Positions 45,849 to 49,602 of a stretch of 64,000 nt of DNA are shown in pieces (position 1 is the first letter of the stretch; the number at the start of each line of letters is the position of its first letter). Origin of the DNA: Desulfuromusa sp. (GTDB lineage Bacteria; Desulfobacterota; Desulfuromonadia; Desulfuromonadales; Geopsychrobacteraceae). The position numbers and the translations under genes were made by a program. The stretch is from the NCBI GenBank assembly GCA_029933365.1, contig JAOZOH010000002.1, positions 14,224 through 78,223 of the forward strand, given 5' to 3'. Below the pieces are notes generated by a model, which had not been told where the DNA came from, did not search any database, and saw nothing but the letters and a program-made list of their open reading frames with translations.

Positions 45849-47015
45849 ATGCCAAATATTGATACTGGACAGTCCTGTAAAGTGATGATTGTTGCCGGGG
45901 AAGCTTCGGGTGACCTGCATGGCAGCAATTTGATCAGGGCTGCTGCTGAATATCATCCTCAGTTAAGCTTTTATGGTGTTGGTGGTGATAAAATGCAGGC
46001 TGCTGGATGCCGCATTCTTTTCCCTTCCAATGAATTATCGGTCATGGGGGTAGTTGAAGTTGTCCGCCAGTTACCGAAGATCTTTCACCGATTTCAACAA
46101 CTTAAGCGGCTTATTCGTGAAACTGAAAAACCTGATTTGTTGATTTTGATTGATTTTCCAGATTTCAATCTGCGGCTCGCCAAGGTTGCCAAAGCCGCCG
46201 GAGTACCAGTTCTGTATTACATCAGCCCCAAGGTCTGGGCCTGGCGCAGTGGTCGGGCAAGAATCATCGCTGATCGGGTTGACCGTCTGGCGCTGATTTT
46301 TCCTTTTGAACCGCAGATTTATGAATCACTAGGTGTAAAAGCTGAGTATGTCGGCAATCCATTACTGGATGAGTTTATAGAGAACCAACCACAAGGTCTG
46401 TTACGAAACAGCCATGGGATTGAGGCGGAAGAGCAGGTCATTGGAATTTTCCCCGGTAGCCGGAATAGCGAACTGGAACATATTTTAGATACCTTGATCG
46501 AAACTGCTGAACTTTTACATCAACAAAGGCCTGCTGCGAAATTTTTGTTGCCAGTTGCCCCGTCATTGTCACGCGATCTTTTAGAACAGAAATTTACTGC
46601 TGCCGGATTACCGGTTCTAATTGTCGAAGAAAATATTTATGAGGTTGCAGCTGCGTGTAACGCAATCTTGACTGTATCAGGAACCGTGACATTACAGATA
46701 GCCTTGGCTGGAACACCGATGGCCATTCTATACAAGGTAGCACCTTTAAGTTATGCCATCGGTAAGCGTTTAATCAAAATAGAATATGCCGGGTTGACAA
46801 ATATTGTTGCAGGACGCGGTGTTGTTCGCGAATTTATTCAGGATGCTGCAGAGCCTGCAGCAATGTCTCGAGAGGTCTTACGTTTGCTCGAAGATCAAGA
46901 TTATATTGAAACAATGCGTAGAGACCTGGGTGAGGTTCGACAGTTGCTCGGTGAGCCTGGTTGTTCGGTGCGGGTCGCCGCTATTGCCGCAGAAATGTGT
47001 GCAGCGATTTCTTAG
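45849..47015 (+). CDS. lpxB: Lipid-A-disaccharide synthase
   Basis: 388 residues, glycosyltransferase family 19. Joins UDP-2,3-diacyl-GlcN to lipid X. Motifs: IVAGEASGDLHGSNLI, VGGDKMQAAG, LIDFPDFNLRLAK, YYISPKVWAWR and FPGSRNSELEHILD, and the sugar-nucleotide site in VSGTVTLQIALAGTPM. I take the ATG at 45849 with AAGGT 11 bases upstream; an in-frame TTG at 45798 lies in the hairpin and adds residues homologues lack. Neither lpxI nor lpxH lies next to it, so the UDP-diacyl-GlcN hydrolase must be elsewhere. Confidence 0.95.
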   Translation: MPNIDTGQSCKVMIVAGEASGDLHGSNLIRAAAEYHPQLSFYGVGGDKMQAAGCRILFPSNELSVMGVVEVVRQLPKIFHRFQQLKRLIRETEKPDLLILIDFPDFNLRLAKVAKAAGVPVLYYISPKVWAWRSGRARIIADRVDRLALIFPFEPQIYESLGVKAEYVGNPLLDEFIENQPQGLLRNSHGIEAEEQVIGIFPGSRNSELEHILDTLIETAELLHQQRPAAKFLLPVAPSLSRDLLEQKFTAAGLPVLIVEENIYEVAAACNAILTVSGTVTLQIALAGTPMAILYKVAPLSYAIGKRLIKIEYAGLTNIVAGRGVVREFIQDAAEPAAMSREVLRLLEDQDYIETMRRDLGEVRQLLGEPGCSVRVAAIAAEMCAAIS

Positions 47016-47031
47016 ACGAGGTTGTTTCGTT

Positions 47032-48774
47032 TTGCTGACAGATAAACAAAAGAATATCTATCTCAGACTCATCAGTTATGCTTTGCCGTATAAGTGGATT
47101 ATTGCACTATCGATGGTGGCTTCCATGGGGGTTGCTGCAACAGATGCCATTCTCGCTTATCTGGTTAAGCCGTTTGTTGATGAGTTGATTGTTGCTGGCA
47201 ACATGGAACTGGCAAAGGTAATACCGTTTCTGGTTGTTGGTCTGGCAGCTTTTAAGGGCATCTCCCGTTACGTTCAGGAGTACTATATTCGTACCGCAGG
47301 TCAGAGTGCTGTTCAAGACATTCGTAATCAAGTTTTCGGCCATTCAATCAAATTGTCGATGCGCTTTTTTACCGGCAATTCTTCTGGCTCATTGATGTCA
47401 AGAATTCTCAATGATGTCAATGTATTGCAAGCTGCACTTGCAGAGGTTCTGGTAACTTTGCTGCGCGAGACTCTGACCATTGTGGCTTTGACCGGTTACG
47501 CTTTTTATGTCGATTGGAAGATGACTCTGATGGCTTTTGTTGTGATTCCTATATCTGTTTGGCCCGCAGCTGCCATTGGTAAAAAAATAAAAAAGTTTTC
47601 CCGGCGTGGTCAGGATGCGATGGGAAATGTGACCAGTGTTCTGGAACAGAGTTTTTCCGGTATTAAGGTGATTAAAGCATTTGCTACTGAAGAACGGGAA
47701 GAACAGAAATTTGTTCAGGAAAATTCCGGTTTTTTTAAATTTATCCGTAAAACATTTAAATATTCGGCAGCTTCGGCTCCTGTAATGGAGCTTCTGACGT
47801 CATTTGGCGTCGCTGCTGTTCTCTGGTACGGCCTGAATCGGGTTGCGGTAGACGCAATGACAAAAGGTGAACTGTTTTCCATTCTTGCAGCTGTTCTGAT
47901 CATGTATACGCCGTTGAAGCGACTGACGAAAGTTAATAACACGATTCAAAAAGCGATCGGAGCCGCAGAGCGGGTTTTTGAAGTACTAGATAATCAGGCT
48001 GAAATTATCGATGCTCCAAATGCAGTTGATTTGCCTCGAAGTCAAGGGTACGTCAGTTTTGAAAATGTCAGGTTTGCTTATGATGACGATCTGGTTTTGC
48101 GCGATTTTTCTGTACAGGCAAAACCGGGTGAGGTTGTTGCTCTGGTCGGGGCAAGTGGTGCCGGGAAAAGTACTCTGATCGGATTATTGAACCGGTTTTA
48201 TGATCCACAGCAGGGGCGCATCCTGATTGATGATCACGATATCCGTGGAGTCACCCAGAAAAGTTTGCACGCAAATCTGGCGTTGGTTGATCAAGAAACG
48301 TTTCTGTTTAATGATACTATCGCCAATAACATCCGCTATGGACAATCTGATGCCGATTTTTCCCTTGTAGAGTCGGCTGCCACTCAGGCTTATGCTGATG
48401 AATTTATCCGGCAGATGCCCGATGGTTATGAGACGAAAATTGGTGATCGCGGTGTGCGCCTGTCTGGTGGACAGCGGCAGAGGCTCTGTATTGCTCGTGC
48501 AATTTTGCGTGATGCTCCGATATTGTTATTAGATGAAGCAACCAGTGCTCTGGATACTGAAAGTGAAGCCATGGTGCAGCAGGCTCTCGGAAATTTGATG
48601 CAAAATCGGACTACGTTTGTTATCGCACATCGTCTTTCTACCATTATGCACGCAGATCGAATTCTGGTTCTTGATCAGGGTGAAATCGTTGAATCAGGAA
48701 ACCACCAGGAATTGCTTGAATACGGTGGACAGTACAAACGTCTCTGCGATGCACAATTTGGAGAGCAGAGCTGA
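47032..48774 (+). CDS. msbA: Lipid A export ATP-binding/permease protein MsbA
   Basis: 580 residues: six membrane spans (about 20-315) and an ABC ATPase (Walker A GASGAGKST, signature LSGGQRQRLCIARAI, Walker B ILLLDEATSALD, His in IAHRLST). It flips lipid A-core across the inner membrane. The start is a TTG at 47032 with GAGG 10 bases upstream; no closer ATG lies in frame before the first span. It begins 16 bases after the lpxB stop codon. The stop TGA at 48772-48774 overlaps an ATG that begins an 8-codon remnant frame (see the repeat at 48782). Confidence 0.94.
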   Translation: MLTDKQKNIYLRLISYALPYKWIIALSMVASMGVAATDAILAYLVKPFVDELIVAGNMELAKVIPFLVVGLAAFKGISRYVQEYYIRTAGQSAVQDIRNQVFGHSIKLSMRFFTGNSSGSLMSRILNDVNVLQAALAEVLVTLLRETLTIVALTGYAFYVDWKMTLMAFVVIPISVWPAAAIGKKIKKFSRRGQDAMGNVTSVLEQSFSGIKVIKAFATEEREEQKFVQENSGFFKFIRKTFKYSAASAPVMELLTSFGVAAVLWYGLNRVAVDAMTKGELFSILAAVLIMYTPLKRLTKVNNTIQKAIGAAERVFEVLDNQAEIIDAPNAVDLPRSQGYVSFENVRFAYDDDLVLRDFSVQAKPGEVVALVGASGAGKSTLIGLLNRFYDPQQGRILIDDHDIRGVTQKSLHANLALVDQETFLFNDTIANNIRYGQSDADFSLVESAATQAYADEFIRQMPDGYETKIGDRGVRLSGGQRQRLCIARAILRDAPILLLDEATSALDTESEAMVQQALGNLMQNRTTFVIAHRLSTIMHADRILVLDQGEIVESGNHQELLEYGGQYKRLCDAQFGEQS

Positions 48775-48781
48775 TGAAGCT

Positions 48782-48944
48782 AGAGTCCTGTCATGCATAA
48801 ACTGTCGCACCTTGCTTGTTCTTTTACGCGCCAACTGCGTTGTGTCTTCCGCTGTATAGCTTTGGCTATGCAGCGAAAAACACGCCTTGTTGACACGCAA
48901 AATCCCGGCGCAAGTTTGCAACATTCTACGCCCGACAGGACTCT
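48782..48944. mobile_element. 163-bp palindromic element inserted in the 5' end of the acyltransferase gene
   Basis: Terminal inverted repeats AGAGTCCTGTC (48782-48792) and GACAGGACTCT (48934-48944), 11 of 11. Inside, the halves are imperfect reverse complements about the centre ATAGC-TTTG-GCTAT near 48863. Both ends are flanked by CT, a possible 2-base target duplication. Cutting out exactly these 163 bases joins ATGAAGCT to GGGTGAC and gives an ATG-led frame starting on the last base of the msbA stop codon. No transposase inside, so it is a MITE or palindromic repeat moved in trans. Origin is inference; the restored frame is seen directly. Confidence 0.8.
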
Positions 48945-49602
48945 GGGTGACCGACTGCTGTTGATGTTTGTTCCTTTTATCGCCTCACGGCTGATGCATT
49001 TACTTAATTTGACGTTGAGAAAAGAAACCCTGGGAGAGGATCAACTTCGTAGTGCTTGGGAGCGTGGTGAGCAGGCTATTATTCCTTTTTGGCACGATCA
49101 ACTGTTTTTGCTGGTTTTTGGATACCCGGCGAAACATGCAAAATTGTTGATAAGCGCGTCAAAGGATGGTGAACTTCTTGCTCGAACTATGAAATACTTT
49201 GATCAGGACACTGTTCGGGGGTCATCCTCGCGTGGTGGTCGTGCCGCCTTCAAGGAGATGCTGGATTTGTGCAAAGAGCCAGTTGATATCGTTTTAACTC
49301 CGGACGGTCCCAGGGGGCCCAGACATGAACTTAAGGATGGTGTCGTGCAGTTGGCACGGATGAGCGGCCGTCCAATTATCCCGATGGCGTTTGTCTGTAA
49401 TCGTGGACATCGGTTTCAATCCTGGGATCGGTTTTTGTTTCCTTATCCATTTGGACGAGGAGTCTATTCTTTTGGGAAACCGCTTTATTTTGACAAACAA
49501 GAGGGTGTGGATGTGTTTCGTGAGCGGCTGAAAAAAGCGATGCAAGATAACCAACAACAGGCTGAAGCTCGGCTGGAGTCGTATGGTGTATCTGCTGTAT
49601 AA
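48793..49602 (+). CDS. Lysophospholipid/LPS acyltransferase-like protein (DUF374), N-terminus remodelled
   Basis: The family core begins near GDRLLLMFVPF (48946 on) and contains PFWHDQLFLLVFGYP, the region ASKDGELLARTM, SSRGGRAAFKEM, and TPDGPRGPRHELKDGVVQLA, typical of DUF374 acyltransferase-fold proteins. Substrate unknown; the place between msbA and waaA points to lipid A or Kdo-lipid A. The frame is open from an ATG at 48793 inside the 163-bp element, adding about 50 odd residues (MHKLSHLACSFTRQLRC...). No good ribosome site is seen for 48793, nor for the later ATG at 48964. The original start was probably an ATG at 48774. Gene identity is secure; the start is not. Confidence 0.78.
   Translation: MHKLSHLACSFTRQLRCVFRCIALAMQRKTRLVDTQNPGASLQHSTPDRTLGDRLLLMFVPFIASRLMHLLNLTLRKETLGEDQLRSAWERGEQAIIPFWHDQLFLLVFGYPAKHAKLLISASKDGELLARTMKYFDQDTVRGSSSRGGRAAFKEMLDLCKEPVDIVLTPDGPRGPRHELKDGVVQLARMSGRPIIPMAFVCNRGHRFQSWDRFLFPYPFGRGVYSFGKPLYFDKQEGVDVFRERLKKAMQDNQQQAEARLESYGVSAV

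Follow-up and report, generated by a model that had tools for sequence, protein, structure and literature searches.

An IS630-type palindromic element appears to supply the start of an acyltransferase gene in Desulfuromusa

Introduction

How does a conserved lipid enzyme come by its start when a palindromic element separates the first codons of its gene from the rest? The question is raised by one junction in the window, the whole 64-kb stretch of DNA analysed here (64,000 nucleotides, from a Desulfuromusa-like bacterium of the Desulfuromonadales), at which an msbA-type gene ends and a gene for a lysophospholipid acyltransferase-like protein begins. From reading the translations, we take the gene order round the site to be lpxD, fabZ, lpxA, lpxB, msbA, acyltransferase, waaA-like and lpxK-like; the name msbA follows the look of the translation and the call made in an earlier reading of this DNA (the original prediction) rather than a family search. 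The acyltransferase, the sole gene of the neighbourhood put to a family search, is DUF374 (9e-25), and by tblastn it is 86% identical to its counterpart in a Deltaproteobacteria MAG (L001), 84% to that in a Desulfuromusa MAG (L002) and 79% to that in Desulfuromusa kysingii (L005).

The explanation that we favour, with a probability of about 70%, is that an IS630-type MITE sits on the start of the acyltransferase gene and now supplies its start codon and first 50 residues by way of a translational restart, following one old insertion that has been kept. The features concerned are as follows.

46804..48774, + strand: msbA-type exporter ORF, from the mechanical ORF listing, with TTG at 46804 and stop TGA at 48772-48774
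48774..48800, + strand: remnant of the old gene start, ATG AAG CTA, then five codons mostly of the element, then TAA
48781..48782, no strand: left TA of the CTAG target, from other copies and the uninterrupted CTAG in L001 and L028
48783..48943, + strand: palindromic element of 161 bp, best read as an IS630-type MITE, from its fold, comparison of copies and ends
48783..48792, + strand: left terminal inverted repeat, 10 bp without the target base, from the sequence
48934..48943, − strand: right terminal inverted repeat, 10 bp, from the sequence
48944..48945, no strand: presumed right copy of the target dinucleotide, now TG, from comparison with L001 and L028
48793..49602, + strand: lysophospholipid acyltransferase-like gene (DUF374, PF04028) in its present form, 269 aa, from the family search and the ORF
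48793..48942, + strand: element-encoded first 50 codons, of which 46 are identical in the homologue P0001
48943..49602, + strand: conserved enzyme core, 219 codons, from an alignment of 15 sequences

The exporter gene probably starts near 47.03 kb and not at the TTG at 46804. In the 15-sequence alignment, the majority of the homologues of the acyltransferase open with MKxGDRLL, two codons ahead of the core start at 48943.

Results

The original prediction described an element with 11-base perfect terminal inverted repeats and a palindromic interior, and both descriptions are borne out. Counted with the target base, the repeats occupy 48782-48792 and 48934-48944; without it, they are 10-bp perfect repeats inside a longer imperfect palindrome, with an RNA fold of −66.1 kcal/mol (z −6.94; 0/200 shuffles equally good) and a DNA fold with a z score of −4.07. 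The predicted length of 163 bp stands for the net insertion, which consists of one TA and, with the ends set by comparison with other copies, an element proper of 161 bp (48783-48943) with TA as its target. The element is short and has no transposase, and exact matches to AGAGTCCTGTC within the window are just the two repeats of this copy. Searches of plasmid and phage collections gave no match to it at E ≤ 0.01, and an Rfam scan at E ≤ 1 returned nothing inside the element and one chance CRISPR-repeat match outside it. The TG on the right (48944-48945) was probably once TA, a change from CTA to CTG being silent for leucine.

Reading frames at the junction are likewise arranged as predicted. 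The msbA stop overlaps an ATG (TGATG); the frame from this ATG at 48774 ends after eight codons at the TAA at 48798-48800; and the shifted frame is open through the element, which encodes some 50 residues (48793-48942). The new internal start that had been proposed corresponds to ATG 48793, the predicted start, which lies inside the element and opens the frame of 269 aa. The msbA-coupled ATG persists upstream, and the remnant that it opens overlaps both the msbA stop and the new ATG. The best anti-SD duplex lies upstream of the old ATG (−6.4 kcal/mol); the ribosome-binding site of the new ATG is weak (−2.4 kcal/mol), which counts against our favoured explanation. An AlphaFold model of the 269-residue protein, built from 15 sequences, is weak (mean pLDDT 59.8) and indicates no folded domain in residues 1-50; because confidence there is low, in blocks of pLDDT 36-49, the extension may simply be a tail that the enzyme tolerates.

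In the nearest relatives examined, the site is uninterrupted, as the original prediction had anticipated. Between msbA and the core there are at most 44 nt in relatives, against 171 in the window, as measured in 56 of 57 loci (L051 is unmeasured, and at least one negative gap, −183, is an artefact of the matching stretch). CTAG is present at the junction in five relatives' loci, including L001 (TGATGAAACTAGGCGATCG) and L028 (TGATGAATCTAGGTGATCG). When the element was BLASTed against the 400 bp upstream in the relatives' loci, the sole match was of 19 bp, in L002 (E 0.035).

One homologue does carry the extension. Among the best 120 of 7576 homologues, P0001 is the only protein of 269 residues, the others there having 202-222, and it is the sole match, among three candidates, in a search with residues 1-50 alone, a search that needs shared 5-residue words and restricts length. 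P0001 agrees with the window at 46/50 residues of the extension and 190/219 of the core, and these 4 and 29 differences indicate that it probably comes from another species. Relatives with the same insert at every site and a conserved peptide within it were named in the original prediction as speaking against an intruding element; P0001 fits this in part, as it has the extension with its peptide conserved, and the other relatives examined are without it. With P0001 as the query, the acyltransferase was found in 34/44 genomes of the family and 103/136 of the order. Among the matches listed, residues 1-14 are uncovered, and the earliest-starting one begins at residue 15 (G052) with an in-frame TGA present; matches starting between residues 35 and 47 were inspected in part.

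That a diverged relative has this extension too suggests that the insertion happened once, long ago, and was retained. Because L001, whose core is at a similar distance from the window as that of P0001, differs from the window at 50/86 fourfold sites, an unconstrained insert of equal age should have changed more; in a neutral simulation at 15% site divergence, the chance of no stop together with at most four changes was 0.0001. As a control, we took four pairs of copies that share a site between two closer genomes and do not belong to recognised genes. They have 28, 49, 45 and 46 of 50 residues the same, and in all but one pair an in-frame stop interrupts one copy or both. The flanks of these pairs gave best translated matches of 94-98%, the other side in L228/L231 reaching only 75%; the four were those with the same flanks out of seven, L199/L232, L156/L231 and L156/L228 being different sites. 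Because two of the pairs, from genomes closer to each other, differ no more in residues than P0001 does, this control is small and speaks mainly through the stops.

The MITE could instead be an inert leader, with translation starting in the core at TTG 48961 or ATG 48964, so that some 8-10 residues would have been lost and not 50 gained. Anti-SD pairing upstream of these two codons is, at −3.7 kcal/mol, stronger than the −2.4 at 48793, and homologues have little N-terminus ahead of LGDRLLL. However, the pairing comes from a 9-base stretch whose start, 20 nt upstream, lies at the limit of the scan and makes for a long spacing, and P0001, which is known as a protein only, has no methionine where the window has this internal ATG (it reads LLLLVV there, and a TTG is possible), yet its element frame is open with nearly all of the 50 residues the same. 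We therefore consider a start in the core unlikely.

The argument from constraint presupposes that a single insertion underlies both P0001 and the window copy. Similar elements could also have entered the same CTAG independently and recently in the two lineages, leaving the peptide unconstrained, and such a coincidence is eased by a target that is sequence-specific and by other copies that, among the matches listed, share much of the frame (38/50 over the full length, 34/39 over part of it). Against it, no other match listed comes as near to the window as P0001 does when all 50 residues are compared (46 vs at most 38), and MHKLSHLA and ASLQHSTPDRT, the variable end parts of the element, are common to P0001 and the window only, among the matches listed; these shared end parts favour a single insertion. 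The central parts speak less clearly and leave some room for two separate, young insertions: there, other copies in the same frame agree with P0001 at 34/39 (L164) and 35/41 (L145) residues, again among the matches listed. We rate two separate insertions as rather improbable, and we infer a single origin of the extension in the window and P0001, and selection on it.

What has been kept might also be the mRNA hairpin and not the peptide, in which case a stem that is cleaved by RNase, or that stabilises the message, would set the ratio of MsbA to acyltransferase. The RNA fold of the element is strong (z −6.94), and the available parts of the sources describe precedents in Correia and ERIC for hairpin effects on mRNA (PMC2229807, PMC10969869). 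A hairpin alone would nevertheless leave unexplained an open frame with 46/50 residues the same in two proteins, and it seems to us a fairly remote account of this site.

The original prediction supposed that the element has other copies, and these are present: at E ≤ 1e-6, related copies occur in 23/44 genomes of the family and 46/136 of the order, with 18 matches each in G003 and G012. Among eight relatives' genomes, G003 and G004 had strong, multiple matches, and most other matches at E ≤ 1 were near chance. Because several copies sit at contig ends (G016 C186:1-120, G017 C93:1-107, G033 C35:7-139), the repeat probably breaks assemblies, and the copy counts are probably lower bounds.

The copies that we studied are a sample of those found. 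In a set of 58 that includes the window, with the short matches L159, L160 and L161 dropped, 43 are exactly 161 bp long. TA flanks the element on the left in 40, on the right in 42 and on both sides in 29; the base after the right dinucleotide is G in 53, and the base before the left dinucleotide is C in 37; and the whole CTAG is present on the left in 26, on the right in 39 and on both sides in 19. The outer base of the flanking TA is more variable than the inner base, whereas a simple TA duplication predicts otherwise; mutated CTAG and a relaxed target would both explain this.

A few copies depart from the common form. One, 318 bp long (L117 1501-1818; G003 C32:20889-21206), has other sequence, palindromic by eye, nested inside it, and at two places, L125 1501-1596 and G003 C102:2524-2553, the two ends lie only 96 and 30 bp apart, probably as shortened copies. 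G020 has six copies with identical scores to the query, and the three that were read (L234, L235, L236) have CTAG on both sides, which suggests a recent spread of the second subfamily.

Among 61 copies checked, that in the window is the only one identified as carrying the start of a gene, and a frame of at least 80 codons continuing across the element was found in none (0/61). This check left out copies without both ends in the locus, the duplicates L148 and L149, the nested L102 and the partial or short L109, L110, L083 and L125. We also inspected 17 other loci whose downstream frame begins within the element or extends out of it, frames ending in the element being left out; judged by inspection and not by gene prediction, copies beside a recognisable gene seem to leave it its own start beyond the element (e.g. 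L199, L226, L232, L089), and the frames at the remaining loci look antisense or due to chance.

A pattern search for ends revealed an IS630-family transposase between element-type ends at L238 868-2086 in G035, and a second transposase with ends on both sides, in a form nearer the second subfamily, at L240 125-1347 in G042. The left end of L238 has 27/30 bases in common with the first-subfamily consensus, and the 26 bases that follow CTAG find no better match inside the L238 element than 14. The ends of the window copy match L238 at 23/30 (left) and 19/30 (right) bases, and L240 matches the second-subfamily consensus at 20/30 at best. Both transposases match the NCBIfam IS630 family (NF033545; the second part above cut-off), a Pfam helix-turn-helix and DDE_3. 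Nine transposase loci in the family have a DDE_3 match; such ends stand on both sides in two of the nine (L238 and L240) and on one side only in L244, and the script found no such ends round the transposase in L237, L239, L241, L242 and L243. The copy-rich genomes G003, G012 and G016, whose assemblies are incomplete, gave no intact IS630 transposase with ends, but one partial match in G003 and none in the other two. The IS630 transposase fragment L141 in G003 was set aside, such ends being absent from the sequence examined. The transposases of L238 (938-2076) and L240 (141-1273) are both split in two frames. Their identical offset suggests programmed frameshifting.

IS630 reportedly has a preference for TA in CTAG, to go by the title of Tenzen and Ohtsubo 1991. 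The Tc1/mariner-like ISY100 duplicates TA, according to the part of the source available (PMC2170065). The IS630/ISY100 type has TA duplication in common with our element; unlike the MITE of 161 bp, IS630 encodes a transposase and is autonomous, and the L238 element measures about 1.2 kb. Its ends, its CTAG/TA target, its copies and the matching insertion sequence make a MITE mobilised by an IS630 transposase the best reading of the 161-bp element; it is of the kind of RUP, ERIC and Correia, beside which we set it by description. Such a transposase would have acted in trans.

We also considered whether the frame within the element is kept across the family. The same frame is open in 34/58 copies. 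A test on the 43 copies of exactly 161 bp (23 and 19 in the two subfamilies, and the window) found 19 open frames where 13.2 were expected in one subfamily (P 0.0115, the copies not being independent) and 10 against 9.7 in the other (P 0.547); this is not clearly beyond the neutral expectation, and family-wide selection on the frame was not upheld. The kinship with the Rickettsia palindromic elements that the original prediction had proposed, which would make this a family of coding palindromes spreading inside genes, is hence very improbable: those elements are also palindromes of about 150 bp that lie in frame inside genes, but nearly half of the first-reported ones were in genes, as far as the available text goes (PMC10969869), whereas here no long frame crosses any of the 61 copies, one gene start is involved, the frame is not clearly kept, and the element is set further apart by its IS630-type ends, by its target (CTAG/TA) and by an insertion sequence with matching ends.

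Discussion

On our favoured explanation, the MITE would have entered a CTAG at codons 3-4 of the acyltransferase gene, a short way past the msbA stop, inserting into its TA presumably by cut-and-paste, and would have severed the old start after three codons. It would at the same time have supplied, at its base, an ATG and a stop-free frame that was by chance in phase with the core. The old ATG, with its ribosome-binding site still within msbA, would now begin an 8-codon peptide whose stop overlaps the new frame just after ATG 48793, and ribosomes arriving from msbA would probably terminate and restart there. The overlap has the geometry of termination-reinitiation, which at 48793 would yield an enzyme of 269 residues whose first 50 are encoded by the element; on this reading, the extension would be translated and either tolerated or kept. 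A stronger version would have the MITE domesticated, serving a conserved lipid enzyme both as an N-terminal module and as the means of translational coupling: the stop-start overlap would have turned into a relay of eight codons with restart on the ATG of the element, and the 50 residues would be under selection in at least two lineages. This is possible, although we hold it only tentatively and lean against it.

MITEs with IS630-type ends are known, as are MITE frames fused to genes, according to the available parts of the sources (PMC2229807, PMC2759123, PMC10969869). As described in these excerpts, RUP of Streptococcus pneumoniae resembles our element in being short, in its TA target and in terminal repeats that match a proposed IS630-family mover; it differs in its length (107 bp vs 161), its host, its sequence, the likeness being one of description, and its description as intergenic (PMC2229807). 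The enterobacterial ERIC, or RU-1, is of similar size, forms a hairpin, has TA at its ends and is mostly intergenic, with open frames that are sometimes fused to genes (PMC2759123, PMC2229807); its reported fusions to proteins of conserved superfamilies concern C-terminal regions, whereas here the element gives a conserved enzyme its start (PMC2759123). Correia, or NEMIS, of Neisseria shares TA ends, terminal repeats, a stem-loop and gene-fused frames, and differs in its host, with processing by RNase III described for it, the likeness again being by description and not by sequence (PMC2229807). In the open-licence literature, we found no report of MITEs in Desulfuromonas or of IS630 MITEs in Geobacter and, by title and the start of the abstract, none of a MITE-supplied N-terminal extension or start codon with translational coupling.

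These results add a widespread IS630-type MITE family in the Desulfuromonadales, for which an insertion sequence is a candidate parent. They also add an instance of a conserved enzyme that apparently owes its start to a mobile element, with operon coupling retained. If borne out, this would be a concrete example of small repeats adding protein sequence at the starts of genes, where the enterobacterial fusions to conserved proteins were C-terminal.
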